A model generated the notes under the pieces. That model was not told the DNA's origin. It saw nothing but the letters and a program-made list of their open reading frames with translations, and did not search any database. The translations under genes and the position numbers were made by a program. 44,982 nucleotides of DNA from Candidatus Altarchaeota archaeon (lineage in GTDB: Archaea; Altiarchaeota; Altiarchaeia; IMC4; QMZM01): positions 1 to 44,982 of the forward strand of contig JAFGDV010000017.1 of assembly GCA_016931955.1 (NCBI GenBank), written 5' to 3'. Position 1 is the first letter of the stretch, and the number at the start of each line of letters is the position of its first letter. Shown in pieces: positions 83-28,357 of this stretch.

Positions 83-1093
83 ATGAAAAAAACAAAAAAG
101 ATTTATATTTTAATTTTTTTGGCCGTCGTTGTGAGTTTGTTTTATTTATCATGGTCACAGAACACGCCAACTGGCGCATTTATAGGAACAAAGGATGAAC
201 CTGTAAGGATATCTCTTTTAACATATACCGGTTATGCACCATTTTATCTTGCAAAAGAATTGAGTTTTTTTGAAAAAGAGGGTGTGAATGTTGAACTTAT
301 AAGGATAGATGATATTGGTGAAGGCAGAGCCGCATTAAAGTCAAAAAGAGTTGATGCTGCACCCATGACATTGGATATGATGATTGCAGCAGCAGATGCT
401 GGTGTTCCATGTACTGCTGTTTCAATGGTTGATAGATCACTGGGTGCCGATGGGATAGTCACTACAAATGAGATAACGAAAGTTGAGGATTTGCAAGGGA
501 AAAAAATTGCGCTGCAACGAGGTTACCCGTCATATACGCTTATGTTGTATCTCCTCCAGAATAAAGGCATGAAAACAGATGATATAGAGATAATAGAGAT
601 GAATGGAGAAGATGCTGCAGCAACCTTTATAGCAAGAAAAATTGATGCTGCTGGAACATGGGAACCATGGTTGAGTAAAGCAACATCAAGAAAAAATACA
701 CATGTACTTATATCCAGTAGAGACGAACCCGGCATAATATCCGATGTTTTAGTCTTCAATTCAGAGTTCGTAAAAGAAAGACCTGATGAAGTTAGAGCCA
801 TTATGCGAGCATGGTTTGATGCAATCGAATACTGGGAAGAACACAAAGAAGAATCAAACAGGATAATGGCTGATGCATACGATCTAAGTTTAGATGATTT
901 TATTATAATGACCGAAGGTGTTGAATGGTCAGACTACAATATGAGCCAAGAGTATTTTAGAACAGATGTAGAGTGCAAAATTTGTGAGATAAAGAAAACA
1001 ATAGAAAAGGCATACATAAATGAAGGTGTTATATCCGGCAATTCTTTGGCTCGCATAGATTCTTCATTTATGAAGGGACTTTATACGCTTTAG
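83..1093 (+). CDS. ABC transporter substrate-binding protein, NMT1/THI5/SsuA-like
   Basis: N-terminal hydrophobic signal/anchor, then LTYTGYAPFYLAKELSFFEKEGVNVELIRIDD...GRAALKSKRVDAAPMTLDMM...GKKIALQRGYPSYTLMLYLLQNKGM typical of NMT1-type periplasmic binding proteins; ATG at 83 preferred over GTG at 74. Confidence 0.85.
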   Translation: MKKTKKIYILIFLAVVVSLFYLSWSQNTPTGAFIGTKDEPVRISLLTYTGYAPFYLAKELSFFEKEGVNVELIRIDDIGEGRAALKSKRVDAAPMTLDMMIAAADAGVPCTAVSMVDRSLGADGIVTTNEITKVEDLQGKKIALQRGYPSYTLMLYLLQNKGMKTDDIEIIEMNGEDAAATFIARKIDAAGTWEPWLSKATSRKNTHVLISSRDEPGIISDVLVFNSEFVKERPDEVRAIMRAWFDAIEYWEEHKEESNRIMADAYDLSLDDFIIMTEGVEWSDYNMSQEYFRTDVECKICEIKKTIEKAYINEGVISGNSLARIDSSFMKGLYTL

Positions 1094-2094
1094 GGTATAC
1101 TAATCACCTCGCCAGTTACATCAACAATTGGACGTAATTCCTTAAAGTCTATAAGGGAAAAAACGAACCGCGTATCAGATGTTATACCATACTCTCCCAA
1201 AGCAAAAATTAAGAATTCACCACCTAGTGCAGACACACCAGCGTAGTTCTCTGTAGGTAACACACCCAAAAATGGATGCGCTGGTTTCCCTATCAAGTAA
1301 AGGCCCCCAAATATCTCTGCAATTTTCCTTAGCTTGTCTCTAACCGCAAGTATTGATGTACCAGGATACTCTCGGTAATCTACTGGGATGAAACCATGTC
1401 CTGTTTCTGCTACTGATCGTATTTCTGTCATACCCTTCAGTAGAAAATCTTCGAATGGATCGACAGAACAATCTTTGGTAGGTACGAGATAAACGAACCT
1501 TTGCGGTTTTTTGTCAAAGAACTCTGCCATGCCCCCATATTTTACAATAGTGTATATCCCACTGTTGAGGAATATACCATCTAATATTGTGCTTGATATC
1601 GTGATTAAAGCCATTTTCCCTTCTGGGACTCTATAATCTAAGATGTCCTCCCCTTCATGCGCTGTCGCAACGAAAGGCGGTGCAAAATTTAAATCCATAC
1701 AAATCTTTTCAAGAAGTTTGAAAACTTCGGTTTCTTTTTCTGCGTCGAATAGTGAAAGATTTGCAACAACATTGCCTTTTTTCTTTTCTAAATCAAAAGA
1801 CATTTCAGTACTCAACTGTATAATTTCGTCAATTACGTAATTTAACTTCGTATGCACCATCGCTTTTCTCTTTTCTTCTTTACCTGCCGCGGTTATTAAT
1901 CTCCCATCTCTTCCATGATTTTCACTAAACCCTTTACTATCCAACAATTCAAGGTACTGTGTAATTCGTCTCCTGCTTAAGTCAATCCCGATTTTTTGTA
2001 ATTCTCTTTCTATTTCTGCTGAAGTCACTGCCCGGTTTTTCCGGTCTAGTACTGATAGTATTTCGTATTCTGTTCGGTCTGTTACTATCTCCAT
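1090..2094 (-). CDS. NrpR-like transcriptional regulator (winged helix + NrpR/DUF128-type domain), copy 1
   Basis: N-terminal EYEILSVLDRKNRAVTSAEIERELQKIGIDLSRRRITQYLELLDSKGF; C-terminal domain with VPEGKMALITISS, SFDPF-like and FGGLYLIGKP motifs shared with the other copies. Confidence 0.85.
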   Translation of the reverse strand: MEIVTDRTEYEILSVLDRKNRAVTSAEIERELQKIGIDLSRRRITQYLELLDSKGFSENHGRDGRLITAAGKEEKRKAMVHTKLNYVIDEIIQLSTEMSFDLEKKKGNVVANLSLFDAEKETEVFKLLEKICMDLNFAPPFVATAHEGEDILDYRVPEGKMALITISSTILDGIFLNSGIYTIVKYGGMAEFFDKKPQRFVYLVPTKDCSVDPFEDFLLKGMTEIRSVAETGHGFIPVDYREYPGTSILAVRDKLRKIAEIFGGLYLIGKPAHPFLGVLPTENYAGVSALGGEFLIFALGEYGITSDTRFVFSLIDFKELRPIVDVTGEVISIP

Positions 2095-2132: not shown

Positions 2133-3125
2133 CTATAGAAGAAGGACTTCGCCGCGGATGGGAGCGATAGGAGTGAGTTCTTTGAAGTTGATTGTTGATG
2201 CTAATGTGTCGTAGTTTGTTTTCACTCCTTTTGCTTCAAGTACTTCGAAAAGGGACTCAGGTGCTACTGTTATTAGACCAAAGTAGCCGCGTCTCGTTGG
2301 GATGCCGCGGAGGTTGTCTCCGTAGCCTCCAACAATTATCGTACCCCCAAGTATGTGCGCCACCTTCCGTGCTATGTCTACAACTCTTGCTCGGACAGTG
2401 TAAGGGACTTCGTCATACTCGAATAGGACTTGTCCATTACCGTTAGATACACAACCATATGTATCCGCCTGCTTATGTTCTATGAACGACTTAAACGGGT
2501 CGAAGGAAACACCTTCCAGTGAAACGAAATTCGTGCATCTTATGGGTTTCCATTCTCTGAATTCCAAGGTCCCTGTACTGCTAAAGCACATGAAGATTCC
2601 GTTATTGAACAAGATTTGTTCCATGACCGAGCATGTTAGCAGCGTCAACCCGAACATGCCTTCTGGAACTACTCTGCTGCCTATTTTCTCCCCTGAGTGC
2701 GAAATTTTTGCTAACTGAGAAAATAGCGGGCTCTGACAGATTTTTTCGAGAATGCACATAGTCTTCTCCTCGTATTTTTCTTTGATTATGCATGAATTGG
2801 CTAATAGTTCTCCTCTCTGGCGGACAAGATCAAAATTTGCATCCATAATCATCCGCGCGATGAGGTCAAAAATAAAATCCGCCCTAGCATAAACATAACC
2901 AGTCTTCAGCTCACCCCTACCCCCCTCAGTAATCCTCCTACCCTTCTTCCCCAAGTTTTCGGTGAAGCCTTTCTTGTCGAAGTCCTGTAGATAATTCCTA
3001 ATCATACGATCCGTCAGACGAATGCCTAAATCATCCAATTCCTTCTTCAGCTCACCCGAAGTCATCGGCTTATTATTTCGCTCCAACGCAGACAAAATCT
3101 CGAAGACATTATGCTCACGCTTCAC
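2133..3125 (-). CDS. NrpR-like transcriptional regulator, copy 2
   Basis: FEILSALERNNKPMTSGELKKELDDLGIRLTDRMIRNYLQDFDKKGFTENLGKKGRRIT...VPEGMFGLTLL...VSFDPFKSFIEHK; GTG start overlapping copy 3 stop by 4 nt. Confidence 0.88.
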   Translation of the reverse strand: MKREHNVFEILSALERNNKPMTSGELKKELDDLGIRLTDRMIRNYLQDFDKKGFTENLGKKGRRITEGGRGELKTGYVYARADFIFDLIARMIMDANFDLVRQRGELLANSCIIKEKYEEKTMCILEKICQSPLFSQLAKISHSGEKIGSRVVPEGMFGLTLLTCSVMEQILFNNGIFMCFSSTGTLEFREWKPIRCTNFVSLEGVSFDPFKSFIEHKQADTYGCVSNGNGQVLFEYDEVPYTVRARVVDIARKVAHILGGTIIVGGYGDNLRGIPTRRGYFGLITVAPESLFEVLEAKGVKTNYDTLASTINFKELTPIAPIRGEVLLL

Positions 3126-4114
3126 AGCAATATCACCTCACCTCTGACGGGAGCGATTGGTTCAAGCTCCTTAAAGTTAGTTTTTGTTGTGAATGTGTCG
3201 TAGTTCGTTTTTATGCCTTTTTCTTCGAGGGCGGCGATTATTGATTCTCCTGCGATTGGTATGATGCCGAAGTATCCTCTTTTTGTGGGTATGCCTAGGA
3301 GGTTGTCTCTGTAGCCTCCGACGACTACTGTGCCGCCTAGTACGCTCACCATCTTCTGGAGTACTTTTATTGTCTTGGATCTGACGGTGTATGGTATATC
3401 ATCGTATTCGACGAGGACGCCTCCGCGTCCTCTGGTTGCTGCATCATATACACCAACCATTTTGTAGTCTATGAACAACTTCCATGGGTCGAATGATACC
3501 CCTAAGCCCGATGCGAATTCCGTGCATCTAACGGGCGTATGGTCTTCGATTTTAGCTATGCCGCTATAACCGAAGTCGACAAATATTCCATTATTGAAGA
3601 TGCATTGATCTACTGCGCCGCTGCTGACAACAGAAAGACCGAACATATCCTTTGGCACTTCTCTGCCAGATATTTTTTCGCCTGCGTGGCTTATTTTAAC
3701 GAGCGGCGAGAACAGGCTGCTTTGACAGACTTCTTCAAGAATATGCAAAGTCTTCTCTTCATGGCTTTCTTTAATTAATACGTGGCAGGTCACCACTTCC
3801 CCTTTCAGCCTATCCAAATCAAACTTAGCGTCCATCATCAAACGCTTAACCAAATCAGAGATCAAGTCTGTGCGAGCATATATAAAAGAATTCTTCAATT
3901 CATCTCTTCCTCTTTCCGTGATCTTACGACCTTCTTTCCCAAACGTCTGAGTGAATCCCTTCCTGTCGAAGTCCTGCAGGTAGTTACGGATCATACGATC
4001 AGTTAGACAAATACCGATATCATCCAACTCCGCCTTTATTTCAGCCGAAGTCATGAATTTATTGCTCCGCTCTAAAGCAGAGAGTATCTCGAATATTTTA
4101 GGCCGATTCTTCAT
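3122..4114 (-). CDS. NrpR-like transcriptional regulator, copy 3
   Basis: Same architecture; ATG start overlaps copy 4 stop (ATGA); ends APVRGEVILL*. Confidence 0.88.
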   Translation of the reverse strand: MKNRPKIFEILSALERSNKFMTSAEIKAELDDIGICLTDRMIRNYLQDFDRKGFTQTFGKEGRKITERGRDELKNSFIYARTDLISDLVKRLMMDAKFDLDRLKGEVVTCHVLIKESHEEKTLHILEEVCQSSLFSPLVKISHAGEKISGREVPKDMFGLSVVSSGAVDQCIFNNGIFVDFGYSGIAKIEDHTPVRCTEFASGLGVSFDPWKLFIDYKMVGVYDAATRGRGGVLVEYDDIPYTVRSKTIKVLQKMVSVLGGTVVVGGYRDNLLGIPTKRGYFGIIPIAGESIIAALEEKGIKTNYDTFTTKTNFKELEPIAPVRGEVILL

Positions 4115-5106
4115 AACAATATCACCTCACCTCTGACGGGAGCTATTGGCTCTAACTCCTTGAAGTTGATGGCTGATAAAAGCGTTGAATAATTGGTTTT
4201 GATTCCTTTTTCTTCCAATGCCGCGAAAATAGACTCACTGCCAACCAAGACAAGACCACAATAACCAGCCCTCGTTGGCACCCCAAGAAGATTATCGCCA
4301 TAGGAGCCGACTACCACTATACCGCCGATTATGTCCACAGTCTTCCTCAGCAAACTTATAACCCTTGCCCGGGCAGTGTATGGTATTTCACAATACTCTG
4401 CTAGAACACTTCCACCCCCCTTAGTGACGCAGTCATAGACCTGCACATATTTATGTCTTATAAACATCTCCCACGGATCAAAGGAAACACCTGAACCTGA
4501 AACGAATTTTGTGCATTTAACCGGATTCCAATTCTTGACCTCTAATATGGTGCTGTTTCCAAAATGCATAAAAACCCCATTATTAACTAAGATCTGATCC
4601 ATCACAGTAGCTGTGCTCAGCACAGCTAAACCAAACATTCCTTCAGGTACTACCCTATTACAGAGTCTCTCCCCTGAGTGGGCAGTTTTCACAAGAGGAG
4701 ATAAAAGACCACTCTGACAGATTTCACCTAAAATTTCCATGACTTTATCTTCCTTACTTCCCTTAATCATCACCAATGAAACTATAAGCTCGCCACGCTG
4801 CCTATTTAAATCAAATCTTGTGTCTGTTACCATTCGCGCGATTAAATCAAAAACAAAATCAGAGTGAGCATAAATAAAAGACGTCTTAAGTTCGTCTCGG
4901 CCTTTTTCTGTGATCTTCCTGCCTTCTTTCCCGAACGGCTGAGTGAAGCCCTGCTTGTCGAATTTCTGTAAATAGTTGCGGATCATGCGGTCAGTTAAAC
5001 GAATACCTATGTCAACTAGTTCGGCCTTAATTTCATTAGACGTCAGCGGCTTATTATTCTTTTCAAGCACGGACAAAATCTCGAAGACATTATGCTCTCG
5101 CTTCAC
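4111..5106 (-). CDS. NrpR-like transcriptional regulator, copy 4
   Basis: Same architecture; GTG start overlaps copy 5 stop (GTGA); ends APVRGEVILL*. Confidence 0.88.
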   Translation of the reverse strand: MKREHNVFEILSVLEKNNKPLTSNEIKAELVDIGIRLTDRMIRNYLQKFDKQGFTQPFGKEGRKITEKGRDELKTSFIYAHSDFVFDLIARMVTDTRFDLNRQRGELIVSLVMIKGSKEDKVMEILGEICQSGLLSPLVKTAHSGERLCNRVVPEGMFGLAVLSTATVMDQILVNNGVFMHFGNSTILEVKNWNPVKCTKFVSGSGVSFDPWEMFIRHKYVQVYDCVTKGGGSVLAEYCEIPYTARARVISLLRKTVDIIGGIVVVGSYGDNLLGVPTRAGYCGLVLVGSESIFAALEEKGIKTNYSTLLSAINFKELEPIAPVRGEVILL

Positions 5107-6092
5107 AGCAAAATCACCTCACCCTTAACCGGAGCTATTGGTTCAAGCTCCCTGAAATTGATGGCGCCATCTATCGTCTCAGTATTAGTCTCTATACCCT
5201 TCTCCTCCAAGGCAGCGGGCAGAGACTCTCCACTGAATGCCACAACGGGGGTATATGTTTCTTTGGGATGGATCCCGAAAATATCTTCCCCCGCCCTGCC
5301 CACAGCAACTTTACCTCCTAAAACCTCCAATCCCCCCCTGAGCAGCTTTATCGCCTTAACCCTTGAAGTATAGGGAAACTCCCGGTAATCCCCAAGTATC
5401 CTCCCAGTCCCAGTGGTTGCCGCACCGTAAACAGAGGCTGCTTTTTTTTCAATAAAGAATCCTAGTGGATCAAAAGAACAACCTATTGCATTTACAATAT
5501 CAACGCAACGCGTCGGCCTGTGATTTTTGATTTCAAGAATAATACCCCAAGAGATAATAGAGTATATGCCTTCATTCAACAACATTTGGTCGACTGTTAT
5601 GCTACTCATGGTGACGATGCCTATTTTGCCTTCAGGCACAAACCTATTACAGAGCTTCTCCCCCTCATGCCGGACACAGATAAAAGGTGGGAAAACCCCG
5701 GATGAACAAACATCCTCAAGAACCTTCAGAGCCCGGCTTTCTTCCTTTTCGAGGATATAGGACAGATTAACTATTACTTCGCCTCGACATCGATTGACAT
5801 CAAATTTCGTTTCAGTAATCATCCTCACAATCTTATCAAAAATAAAATCTGTCCGAGCATAAACATAACCGGTCTTCAGCTCATCCCTACCCACATCAGT
5901 TATACACCGACCTTCTTTGCCAAGATTCTTAGTGAAGCCTTTTTTGTCAAAATCCTGGAGATAGTTGCGGATCATGCGGTCAGTTAAACGAATACCTATG
6001 TCATCGAGTTCCGCCTTAATTTCTCCAGAAGTCATAGGCCGATTATTCCTCTCCAACACCGATAAGATCTCGAAGACGTTGCGTTCCTTCAT
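5103..6092 (-). CDS. NrpR-like transcriptional regulator, copy 5 (first gene of the overlapping chain)
   Basis: MKERNVFEILSVLERNNRPMTSGEIKAELDDIGIRLTDRMIRNYLQDFDKKGF; start trimmed from ORF 6167 to the homologous ATG at 6092. Confidence 0.88.
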   Translation of the reverse strand: MKERNVFEILSVLERNNRPMTSGEIKAELDDIGIRLTDRMIRNYLQDFDKKGFTKNLGKEGRCITDVGRDELKTGYVYARTDFIFDKIVRMITETKFDVNRCRGEVIVNLSYILEKEESRALKVLEDVCSSGVFPPFICVRHEGEKLCNRFVPEGKIGIVTMSSITVDQMLLNEGIYSIISWGIILEIKNHRPTRCVDIVNAIGCSFDPLGFFIEKKAASVYGAATTGTGRILGDYREFPYTSRVKAIKLLRGGLEVLGGKVAVGRAGEDIFGIHPKETYTPVVAFSGESLPAALEEKGIETNTETIDGAINFRELEPIAPVKGEVILL

Positions 6093-6193: not shown

Positions 6194-6481
6194 TTAGAGG
6201 TGCTTTTCAGCGTACTCCATAGCAGACTTCGCGTCCCCCAGCTCAAGGTTCACTGGAATACAGTAGGTCTTAAGCAGATCAAGGAACTCGGAAAGAGAGA
6301 CTCCGGCGAATCTCGCACCCAAGCCAAGGCTGACCTTACCCTCCCTGTAAAGCTCCAACGCCTCCATCTGCCTCCCCTTAAACAAAAGACTTCTTATAAC
6401 CTTGGACCTCTTCTTCCTCAGAATCCTGCCGATAAAATCCAAATCCTTCACACGCTCCAATCGAACAGATACCGTCTCCAT
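6194..6481 (-). CDS. UPF0175-family putative antitoxin
   Basis: METVSVRLERVKDLDFIGRILRKKRSKVIRSLLFKGRQMEALELYREGKVSLGLGARFAGVSLSEFLDLL: UPF0175 pattern; adjacent to a DUF3368-like gene. Confidence 0.75.
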   Translation of the reverse strand: METVSVRLERVKDLDFIGRILRKKRSKVIRSLLFKGRQMEALELYREGKVSLGLGARFAGVSLSEFLDLLKTYCIPVNLELGDAKSAMEYAEKHL

Positions 6482-6486
6482 TTTTT

Positions 6487-6972
6487 TTACTCCAACCTGC
6501 TTTTAAAGTAAGCATAAACCTCCTTCGAATACCTCCCATAATCATAAAGCCTGTCCAGCTTCCCCTCAGCCTCCTCTTTCGTAAAAAGCCCCTTCTCAAA
6601 CAACCTGACGACCACAGCCATCGCACAAACGAAGGGGATCCTCTCAACCCTGCACAACTTTATAAGCTCCCCGTCATCTGTCAACAAAGCCTTGGCTTCG
6701 GCTTCATTAAACAAAACATAAGCAGCTGCCTCGCCTTCATGGAGCCTGAACTGCTTAAGCACTGCCGTCAATTTACTCTTTTTTATTTCCCTCACCTCAA
6801 GTCTACCCCTCTCCACTTCCTTCCGGATGAGCACGGAATCAAATGCGTCCTTGTTCACAGACACCTCCCCTAAAACCTCCCCAGGAATAACCACCCTAAA
6901 GTTATCTAAAAACTCCTGGATAACAGACGCCTTCGCCAACAAAATCAAAGTCGACGCATTAGAAACCAACAT
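6487..6972 (-). CDS. DUF3368/PIN-like putative toxin
   Basis: MLVSNASTLILLAKASVIQEFLDNFRVVIPGEVLGEV...LHEGEAAAYVLFNEAEAKALLTDDGELIKLCR...AMAVVVRLFEKGLFTKEEAEGKLDRL: PIN-like acidic residues and DUF3368 layout; ATG at 6972 preferred over 7047. Confidence 0.78.
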   Translation of the reverse strand: MLVSNASTLILLAKASVIQEFLDNFRVVIPGEVLGEVSVNKDAFDSVLIRKEVERGRLEVREIKKSKLTAVLKQFRLHEGEAAAYVLFNEAEAKALLTDDGELIKLCRVERIPFVCAMAVVVRLFEKGLFTKEEAEGKLDRLYDYGRYSKEVYAYFKSRLE

Positions 6973-7003: not shown

Positions 7004-7200
7004 TCACAGCAACAAAAACTCGCCACAGACGGAGGCAACCGATTCAAGCTCCCTGAAGTCCATCATAGTGCACAAAAACATGAAAATATGTGCAGTACAT
7101 TTTATCCACAGCCCAACCCGGATCCGATCCCGCCCGACATCATAGGCCGATTATTCCTCTCCAACACAGACAAGATCTCGAAGACTTTGCGTTCCTTCAT
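7004..7200 (-). pseudogene. Internally deleted NrpR-like gene (seventh copy): N-terminal and C-terminal ends retained
   Basis: Minus strand from 7200: MKERKVFEILSVLERNNRPMMSGG... (compare copy 5 MKERNVFEILSVLERNNRPMTSGE); ending at 7004: MDFRELESVASVCGEFLLL* (compare NFRELEPIAPVKGEVILL*); the ~290 internal codons are missing. Confidence 0.88.
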
Positions 7201-7340: not shown

Positions 7341-8801
7341 ATGATGCATTGGATAATGGCGGCCGTGGTAGGATTCTTCGCCATAATAATATTGGTAGGC
7401 TTATACCTCTCCAAGTCAGTGAAGGGGAGAAGCGAAAACTACATAGTAGCAGACAGAAAACTGATCCTCGGAGTAACAGCGGCAACGCTGACCGCCCAAA
7501 GCATCGACGCAGACATAACACTGGGGTTGACGAATTTCACCTTCCAATACGGTTTCTGGTCGGGTGCGGCAATGATCCTGGGCCTAGGCGGCGCACTAAT
7601 CCTGATAGGATTATTCTTCGCCGAACCACTGAACAAGATGAAACTACTCACACTACCAGACTTCTACCGGAAAACCTACGGAAGACACATGGAAGCCATG
7701 GTATCCATGCTAATGGCCCTAAGCGCCTCAATATTCATCGGCGGATGCCTCGTCGCCCTAGGCTTCATCTTCCAAAGCTTCCTCGGAATACCCTACTGGC
7801 CCGCCATAATACTCGTCTCGGCAGGCATACTAACATACACTATGGCAGGCGGCCTGGTCTCAATATCCAAGACAGACATCATACAGTTAGTCTTCGTTCT
7901 ATTAGGAGCAGCAGCCCTCATGTTCATCGTATTAGATTATGGATTACTATCCAACATAACACAGGGAATAGAAAACCCGAGCAAGATGCTGGACTCGAAC
8001 ACGGGTCCGGCAGTCAACATAGCGATCCTACTGGCCCTAGGGTTAGGGAACATTGTCGCAATAGACTTCATGGAGCGCGTATTCGCGACCGACAAACCAG
8101 AAACATCCAAGAAAGCATGCTACATCGCAGGAATAGGGACCATACTCATAGGGATACCCTTCATCCTCGTAGGAGTGTCCTCCAACAGCCTATTCACTGA
8201 ATTAGACATCCCAGTCAACCCAGACGCTGAGCCCGTGCTGCTGACCTTCCTATCCAATGTGCAGCCTCAGATCCTTACTTACCTGATCCTGTTGGGGCTT
8301 ATCGCGGCCGCCGTGTCTACGGCAGACGGATTGATTCTGGCGGCCTCCTCTATAACCTCCCACAACCTGCTGGGGTATAAGCCAGGTTCTTTGAATAAGA
8401 GAGGAGACCGGCTGCTGTACATGTCGAGGCTGTGCATGATACCTGTTCTCGCATTCAGCATAGTGTGCGCCATCACCCTGCCCTTCCCAGGCACGCTAAT
8501 AATACTATCATTCGACATACTGCTCTCCGGGGCAGCTATTCCATTCATACTGGGGGTGCACTGGAAGAAAGCCAACAAGCCGGCGGCCATCGCATCCTTT
8601 GTGGCGGGAGTGCTCACACGCCTCCTCCTCTTTGTGCTGACGCCGACCTTCTACGGCATAGAGAACAACATACTGTTCATAGAAGGCTTCCTAACACCAG
8701 CCTTCGATGGAGTGCCGACCATCCTATCACCCCTCATCGGCTTGGTGGTCTTCGTCGCAGTCGCCTCGATAACGCAAGAAAACAACATAAAGACGGGCTA
8801 A
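7341..8801 (+). CDS. Sodium:solute symporter (SSS family)
   Basis: Multi-TM protein; GRSENYIVADRKLILGVTAATLTAQSIDADITLG...LPDFYRKTYGRHMEAM...YTMAGGLVSISKTDIIQ...LGLIAAAVSTADGLILAASS typical of SSS transporters. Confidence 0.85.
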   Translation: MMHWIMAAVVGFFAIIILVGLYLSKSVKGRSENYIVADRKLILGVTAATLTAQSIDADITLGLTNFTFQYGFWSGAAMILGLGGALILIGLFFAEPLNKMKLLTLPDFYRKTYGRHMEAMVSMLMALSASIFIGGCLVALGFIFQSFLGIPYWPAIILVSAGILTYTMAGGLVSISKTDIIQLVFVLLGAAALMFIVLDYGLLSNITQGIENPSKMLDSNTGPAVNIAILLALGLGNIVAIDFMERVFATDKPETSKKACYIAGIGTILIGIPFILVGVSSNSLFTELDIPVNPDAEPVLLTFLSNVQPQILTYLILLGLIAAAVSTADGLILAASSITSHNLLGYKPGSLNKRGDRLLYMSRLCMIPVLAFSIVCAITLPFPGTLIILSFDILLSGAAIPFILGVHWKKANKPAAIASFVAGVLTRLLLFVLTPTFYGIENNILFIEGFLTPAFDGVPTILSPLIGLVVFVAVASITQENNIKTG

Positions 8802-9793
8802 TAGAGTAATAGACCGCCTCTCAATTCAGCGATCGGTTGAAGCTCATTGAAGTCCATGCTCGCCTCCACCGTCGTTGTGTTCGTTTTTATGTTACGCTCT
8901 TCTAGAGCAGACAACAGAAGTTCTCCGCCGAATCCAACTATTCCAGTATAGCCCTCCTTGGTCTTTAAGCCGAGCACTTCAGACCCTGTTCTGCCGATAA
9001 CGACCAAGCCGCCGAAGACGTCGACGAACTCTTTCAGTACTTTAAGCGCCCTCAGCCTGGCTGTTGAAGGTATCTCCCTGTAGTCGGCTGGTATGCCCCC
9101 AAGATTCTTCTTCACTGCCTCATAGACGCTGCCCATCCTGTTCGAGATAAAGATCTGGAGAGGGTCTATGGAGCTTCCCTCATAGGAGATCAGTTCAGTG
9201 AATCTCTTCGGCTTATGTTCTAGGAACTCAATAAGGCCGCCGTAGAGGGGGTTCACATAGATCCTCTCATTCAGGAGTACTTCCTCTATCGTCACACTCG
9301 ATATGGTGGCTAAACCGAACATGCCCTCAGGAACCTCTCTATTGCACAGGTTATCCCCCTGTCTCGCTGTTTTTATGAACGGGGGAGTCAGGTTTATTCC
9401 ATCGCAGATTTCCTTGAGTGTTTTTATGGTCTCATCCTCCTGGTCTTCTTGGATGAATGAAAGATTCACTATGACGTCGCCCTTCCCCCTCTCCAAGTCG
9501 AATCTAGTATCCGTGATAAGCCTGACGATCCTATCCAGTATGAAATCCGACCTACCAAAGATGTAGGCCTTCTTCAGCTCTTCCCTCCCAAGCTCGTTTA
9601 TCTGTCTCCCGGATCTGCCGAGTTTTCGGGTGAAGCCCATCCCATCAAGGGATTCCATATAGTTTCTGACCATCCTCTCAGTCAGATCAATACCGATATC
9701 ATGTAGTTCGTCCCTGATCTCTCCAGAAGTCATGGGCTTGTTCGCCCGATCCAACGCAGACAAGATCTCGAAGACGTTTTTTTCTTTGGTCAT
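8798..9793 (-). CDS. NrpR-like transcriptional regulator, copy 6
   Basis: MTKEKNVFEILSALDRANKPMTSGEIRDELHDIGIDLTERMVRNYMESLDGMGF...VPEGMFGLATISS...SSIDPLQIFISNRMG. Confidence 0.88.
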   Translation of the reverse strand: MTKEKNVFEILSALDRANKPMTSGEIRDELHDIGIDLTERMVRNYMESLDGMGFTRKLGRSGRQINELGREELKKAYIFGRSDFILDRIVRLITDTRFDLERGKGDVIVNLSFIQEDQEDETIKTLKEICDGINLTPPFIKTARQGDNLCNREVPEGMFGLATISSVTIEEVLLNERIYVNPLYGGLIEFLEHKPKRFTELISYEGSSIDPLQIFISNRMGSVYEAVKKNLGGIPADYREIPSTARLRALKVLKEFVDVFGGLVVIGRTGSEVLGLKTKEGYTGIVGFGGELLLSALEERNIKTNTTTVEASMDFNELQPIAELRGGLLLY

Positions 9794-27169: not shown

Positions 27170-27214
27170 AAAGGATATAATCTGATTCTTAGGATTTTTT
27201 GTGAGGTGATTTAA

Positions 27215-28357
27215 ATGGCGAAAGCGCCAGCAGACACAATAAAATACAACATCTATGCGGAGATCTCAATAGACGGCGTAGTTGAGAAACCAGACGTCGT
27301 TGGAGCGATCTTCGGCCAATCTGAGGGATTGCTTGGAGAAGACCTAGAACTGAGGGAACTGCAGAAGACGGGCAGGATAGGTAGAATAGAGGTAGATATA
27401 AAGACGAAGGTTGGTAAATCCGTTGGTACGGTAATAGTGCCCTCGAGCCTGGACATGGTTGAGACATCTATAATCGCCGCGGCAGTCGAAACAGTAGACC
27501 GCGTCGGACCATGTAATGCGAAGATAAAGGTCAACGAAATCGAAGACGCCCGTTCATCGAAGAGAAAACACATCATCGATAGAGCGAAGGAACTGCTCAA
27601 GAAGCTGGTTGAGGAGGAGATCCCAGAAAGCGACCAGTTGACTGATGAAGTCAAGAAGTCGGTCCAGTTAAGCGAGATCACCAACTACCAAGGCCTGCCT
27701 TCCGGGCCTGGAATAGATGTGGCTGAAAGCGTGATCCTTGTGGAGGGAAGAGCGGACGTTCTAACATTGCTTAAATGCGGCATAAAGAACGTCGTCGCAG
27801 TCGGAGGCACAAACATACAGAAGCAGATAATAGACTTGAGCAAGGAGAAAACAACCATCGCCTTCTTGGACGGCGACCGTGGCGGGGAAATAATACTGAA
27901 GGAGTTAACCCAGGTTGCTGATGTTGACTTCGTCGCCAGAGCCCCGAGGGGTAAGGAGGTTGAGGAGTTAGGTAAGAAAGAGATAATAATGGCCCTCCGC
28001 AGAAAGGCCCCATTAAGTCAAGTGAGGGGATATGAGTCAAAGAAGGGACAACCGCAGAAGACTGAAGAAAAGGTGGGAGAAGACGATAAAAAACTGCTCG
28101 AGCTCCTGAAGGAGGTTAAAGGCAACCTGACTGCGCGATTATACGATAAAAACCTTGAATTGATAACCGAAATCGAGATTAAGGATCTTGTAGACAGCCT
28201 GAAGGACGTACAACCCTACTGCATCGTCTTCGACGGCATAGTAACCCAACGCCTCGTTGACGCTGCCGCAGATAGTAAGGTGGGGTATATCGTCGGTGTC
28301 AACAAGTCCGCAATCTCGAACACACGGAAGGTGAACATCCTAACAGAGAAGGAATAG
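27215..28357 (+). CDS. dnaG: Archaeal DnaG-type primase (TOPRIM)
   Basis: DTIKYNIYAEISIDGVVEKPDVVGAIFGQSEGLLGEDLELRELQKTGRIGRIEV...VILVEGRADVLTLLKCGIKNVVAVGGT...IAFLDGDRGGEIILKEL; SD GAGGTGAT upstream. Confidence 0.97.
   Translation: MAKAPADTIKYNIYAEISIDGVVEKPDVVGAIFGQSEGLLGEDLELRELQKTGRIGRIEVDIKTKVGKSVGTVIVPSSLDMVETSIIAAAVETVDRVGPCNAKIKVNEIEDARSSKRKHIIDRAKELLKKLVEEEIPESDQLTDEVKKSVQLSEITNYQGLPSGPGIDVAESVILVEGRADVLTLLKCGIKNVVAVGGTNIQKQIIDLSKEKTTIAFLDGDRGGEIILKELTQVADVDFVARAPRGKEVEELGKKEIIMALRRKAPLSQVRGYESKKGQPQKTEEKVGEDDKKLLELLKEVKGNLTARLYDKNLELITEIEIKDLVDSLKDVQPYCIVFDGIVTQRLVDAAADSKVGYIVGVNKSAISNTRKVNILTEKE

Follow-up and report, generated by a model that had tools for sequence, protein, structure and literature searches.

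Regulators of the NrpR family repress nitrogen genes and are released by 2-oxoglutarate; for the array copies described below, this function is assigned by family name only. In the literature, nothing was found on NrpR in Altiarchaeota or on tandem duplication combined with translational coupling. The closest described systems are pairs of overlapping genes, for which the mechanism and the frequency of termination-reinitiation have been published (PMC6728339, PMC10666635). Reinitiation is nearly abolished by gaps of about 20 nt, and overlapping pairs are enriched for subunits of heteromeric complexes (PMC10666635). Removal of the Shine-Dalgarno (SD) sequence had a partial or no effect at several of the overlaps tested by Huber et al. 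2019 (PMC6728339). Here we describe a stretch of archaeal DNA of 44,982 nucleotides (the window) in which four genes for diverged NrpR-type proteins overlap one after the other.

Results

The window corresponds to contig C28 of a 1.55-Mb genome of an Altiarchaeales relative, which contains seven full NrpR-type copies, six within the window and one (L004) on contig C37 (Table 1). All six copies of the window match PF08461 (HTH_12) followed by PF01995 (NRD1_2) above the curated Pfam cut-offs, and the array proteins showed no match in NCBIfam. The minus-strand genes A, B, C, and D are arranged head-to-tail with successive 4-nt overlaps (GTGA, ATGA, and GTGA, respectively). The proteins B, C, and D share only 51-54% identity with A, and the possibility that the array is an assembly artefact was rejected for this reason.

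Table 1. NrpR-type genes and SD strings of the array and its surroundings.
Feature	Position	Strand	Description
Gene A	5103..6092	-	NrpR-type regulator (HTH_12 + NRD1_2); first gene of the array; SD-less leader; ATG at 6092
Gene B	4111..5106	-	NrpR-type paralogue; GTG start, 4-nt overlap with stop of A
Gene C	3122..4114	-	NrpR-type paralogue; ATG start, 4-nt overlap with stop of B
Gene D	2133..3125	-	NrpR-type paralogue; GTG start, 4-nt overlap with stop of C; last overlapping gene; tail GEVLLL without SD string
Gene E	1090..2094	-	more distant NrpR-type paralogue; start 38 nt after D; tail GEVISIP holds GAGGTGATT at 1103-1110
Gene F	8798..9793	-	solitary NrpR-type paralogue with tail GGLLLY; by synteny and tree, orthologue of L030, the only copy in B52_G2
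Remnant copy	7004..7200	-	first ~20 and last ~20 codons kept, interior missing; tail GEFLLL without SD string
L004	contig C37		solitary seventh NrpR-type copy
GAGGTGAT in A tail	5113..5120	-	predicted SD, 6 nt before GTG of B
GAGGTGAT in B tail	4121..4128	-	predicted SD, 6 nt before ATG of C
GAGGTGAT in C tail	3132..3139	-	predicted SD, 6 nt before GTG of D

The start region of the remnant copy (27 residues) is 81% identical to that of A, and its leader is also kept; this copy is evidence of copy loss beside the array. By inspection only, a TATA-like element is found about 30-37 nt before the start of A, F, and the remnant, and all three have a short leader lacking an SD. The agreement of these upstream elements fits a scheme in which first genes would start without an SD and inner genes would use one. 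Between A and the remnant, a small UPF0175-type gene (6194-6481, minus strand) lies directly downstream of a 161-aa ORF (6487-6972, minus strand), which appears PIN-like by eye and was matched by no Pfam or NCBIfam model; the two form a possible toxin-antitoxin pair.

E has a 4-nt tail-to-tail overlap (1090-1093) with the convergent gene of an NMT1-like substrate-binding protein (98-1093, plus strand), and F overlaps or abuts a convergent sodium:solute symporter gene tail to tail (8798-8801). In a scan of genome contigs, the only close homologue outside the source genome was found in Candidatus Altiarchaeales B52_G2, where the two genes adjoin as well (L030 2715-2727). Since the pair of an NrpR-type gene and a symporter gene shows conserved synteny with B52_G2, the symporter may be a target of the F-type NrpR gene.

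The tails of A, B, and C all encode GEVILL (GGT GAG GTG AT(T/A/A) TTG (CTG/TTA/CTG) TGA), and in each of them the string GAGGTGAT ends 6 nt upstream of the next start codon. The first-pass annotation had reported these tails, the string, and the GTGA/ATGA overlaps at 5103, 4111, and 3122, all of which we found in place. It had further stated that GAGGTGAT complements the typical archaeal 16S rRNA 3′ end and also precedes dnaG; the latter was confirmed, and the former holds for relatives. The 16S copy of the genome itself is incomplete in the assembly (the match stops at model position 828), and 16S sequences of relatives were used instead. In 14/14 genomes of the same order that hold it, the congener included, the 16S 3′ end is GGATCACCTCC, which pairs with GAGGTGAT at eight of eight positions. 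In front of dnaG, the string is located at 27203 and the ATG at 27215. The array junctions, with a stop/start overlap (ATGA/GTGA) and an SD in the upstream tail matching the 16S of relatives, thus have the form of overlapping pairs with an intragenic SD. Because of the complete pairing with this 16S, the use of GGTGA-type SDs, the 6-nt spacing, and the stop/start overlap, GAGGTGAT is predicted to be the SD site for the following gene. With the two genes overlapping, the tail is the only place available for it. An Rfam scan of the window detected no RNA family at the gathering threshold.

SD use and codon usage across the genome were counted in about 400 kb, sampled by stretches from the 1.55 Mb. 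Upstream of the starts of 314 long ORFs, GAGGTGAT occurred seven times compared to 0-1 times for control strings, indicating that it is an ordinary ribosome-binding site (RBS) in this genome; for AGGTGA, the count was 24 compared to 1-4 for the controls. Among 43 candidate 4-nt overlaps, an 8-nt match to the anti-SD was present at the three array junctions only and at none of the 40 others. The ends of 380 long ORFs showed a match of at least 8 nt only at these junctions, in E, and in one further case. Matches of at least 6 nt were found at 11/93 gene ends with a close follower and at 11/287 without one (Fisher p = 0.008), and p was 0.09 once the three NrpR junctions were set aside. A strong SD is therefore not the rule at the overlaps of this genome. 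GAG GTG accounts for 12.5% of the Glu-Val codon pairs in the sampled ~400 kb, which gives a chance of 0.002 for its presence in 3/3 tails if these were independent.

Comparison of the copies argues against such independence. Over the last 20 codons, A, B, and C show 79-84% DNA identity, and A is as close to the uncoupled L004 (84%) as it is to the coupled B and C (79-81%). The tree places L004 between A and B-C-D, within the array clade, with support of 97/99 for the whole group and 87/91 for L004 with B-C-D. Across the stop-start region, the A/B and C/D junctions are identical at 50 of 52 nt (minus strand, 5080-5131 and 3099-3150). For B and D, identity is 85% in the first 22 codons compared to 60-65% elsewhere. 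This junction block is near-identical although the surrounding genes are far more diverged. At A/B and C/D, the junction is probably a tract that was converted or duplicated and that covers the ribosome footprint. Because of the identity of the last 20 codons, the closeness of A to L004, and the shared junction block, the three array tails are not independent, and the value of 0.002 does not hold for them. Judged by the same alignments, they are alike through descent or conversion, owing to a common C-terminal stretch and to junction-spanning duplication or conversion. Since the uncoupled L004 sits inside the array clade, GAGGTG in the tail is probably older than coupling, or else was retained after coupling had been lost.

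According to the first-pass annotation, copies without an overlapping follower lack the string. This is correct for D, the remnant, and F: the tail of D reads GAA GTC CTT and that of the remnant GAG TTT TTG, and these two tails as well as that of F are devoid of GAGGTGAT. It is not correct for E (1090), whose tail (GGC GAG GTG ATT AGT ATA CCC TAA) holds the full 8-mer while no same-strand gene follows within the window. The likewise uncoupled L004 (GGT GAG GTG TTG TTG CTG TAG) retains GGTGAGGTG, six of the eight bases. Compared to the L004 tail, the coupled copies have Ile in place of Leu, which completes the 8-mer, and TGA instead of TAG. With E (full) and L004 (partial) uncoupled in the same genome, the rule that the string occurs only where a paralogue follows is broken. 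An equal frequency of the string in solitary homologues, which the annotation had named as speaking against its proposal, was thus found by half, with the whole 8-mer in one of these copies and most of it in the other.

The tails of 90 PF01995 genes from other archaeal genomes contained neither GAGGTGAT nor a GEVILL ending; GGTGA was present in five. In L156 and L157, the tail holds GAGGTGA 6 nt before the start of an overlapping unrelated gene, and these two represent an independent case of a putative SD within an NrpR-family tail. In both loci (genomes G117 and G587, respectively), the ATG overlaps the NrpR-family stop by 8 nt and an unrelated ORF of ~160 aa follows. The tails of L050 and L057 carry AGGTGA just upstream of a close downstream ORF, and L010 has a GGTGA tail without a follower. 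Because the unrelated tails of L156/L157, L050, and L057 hold their own SD near a close gene, it seems that an SD tends to arise where the next start lies, whatever the tail encodes. Among the matches listed, the other examined genomes, those of the phylum Halobacteriota included, contained no adjacent HTH-NRD genes, and none of them exceeded seven NrpR-type copies. No full-length copy was found in 27 of the 29 Altiarchaeota genomes searched, many of these genomes being incomplete.

Discussion

The junctions are, very probably, those of an ordinary operon coupled via intragenic SDs, which would work by termination-reinitiation and whose SD would have been inherited as the array grew. A-B-C-D would form one head-to-tail operon of diverged NrpR-type regulators on a single transcript. 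Translation would begin at A, which has a short leader of its own without an SD. When a ribosome finishes A, B, or C, the 16S 3′ end would pair with GAGGUGAU in the terminal codons of that gene and so keep the ribosome close to the GTGA/ATGA overlap, from where it would reinitiate at the start of the following gene, 6 nt further downstream. The GGT GAG GTG codons of the common C-terminus presumably provided the greater part of an SD before the genes became coupled, and the array may have grown by duplication or conversion of junction-spanning blocks. Two of the junctions have a GTG start, which is weaker than ATG; this counts against the explanation, as does the weak enrichment (p = 0.09) of SDs at close gene pairs apart from the NrpR junctions. 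Coupling of E to D was considered and rejected; E is probably uncoupled from D because the 38-nt gap exceeds the working distance of reinitiation (PMC10666635).

The first-pass annotation had gone further and proposed that selection acts on the GEVILL tail as an RNA signal by which every new head-to-tail copy would be coupled from the outset. Such selection could account for the retention of the string in all three coupled tails despite the 51-54% protein identity to A, and for the three junctions being the strongest SDs of the 43 candidate overlaps. The terminal copy D retains GEV, but with GAA GTC, and Ile, which completes the 8-mer, is found in the coupled copies as opposed to Leu in L004, D, and B52_G2. 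However, E and L004 keep all or most of the string uncoupled, and the tails share descent or conversion, A being as similar to L004 as to B and C. The tail is also absent from the 90 other archaeal homologues, with no second array among the matches listed. We therefore consider selection for duplication improbable. Another reading, in which the change from Leu to Ile together with TGA completed an RBS latent in GGT GAG GTG of the C-terminal stretch conserved in this clade, and constraint on the encoded protein pre-adapted the family for repeated coupled tandem copies and operon growth, appears doubtful.

Conversely, the string might simply follow from the conserved protein sequence and the choice of codons, and overlap-driven reinitiation might not need it. 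E and L004 show that a tail can contain the string, wholly or for the most part, without using it, and the results of SD removal by Huber et al. 2019 (PMC6728339) point in the same direction. An exact 8-nt match with a constant 6-nt spacing at 3/3 overlaps, compared to 0/40 other candidate overlaps, and the enrichment of the same motif upstream of other starts make this very improbable. The preferred explanation remains the coupled operon with an inherited intragenic SD, and the array is a clear but ordinary instance of a known translation linkage, not a tail evolved to spread copies.

The mildly unusual part is the array itself: this Altiarchaeales genome contains seven NrpR-type genes, four of them overlapping. 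At successive overlaps of paralogues, the same bases are here under both coding and ribosome-binding constraints, a tidy example from an archaeal phylum that has been little studied. Should the genes of the array indeed be coupled, the cell would produce four diverged NrpR-type proteins at a linked ratio, which would fit the enrichment of overlapping pairs for heteromer subunits (PMC10666635) and would suggest mixed-subunit regulators. Compared to the NrpR proteins of the Methanocaldococcus and Methanosarcina types, the six copies of the window are alike in having an HTH_12 winged helix followed by NRD1_2, and differ in having one NRD per protein and in their number and overlapping arrangement within one genome. 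Compared to the described ATGA/GTGA overlapping pairs with an intragenic SD (PMC6728339, PMC10666635), whose coupling the array is predicted to share, it joins paralogues of a single family through three overlaps in a row, with an SD stronger than at the other overlaps of the genome.
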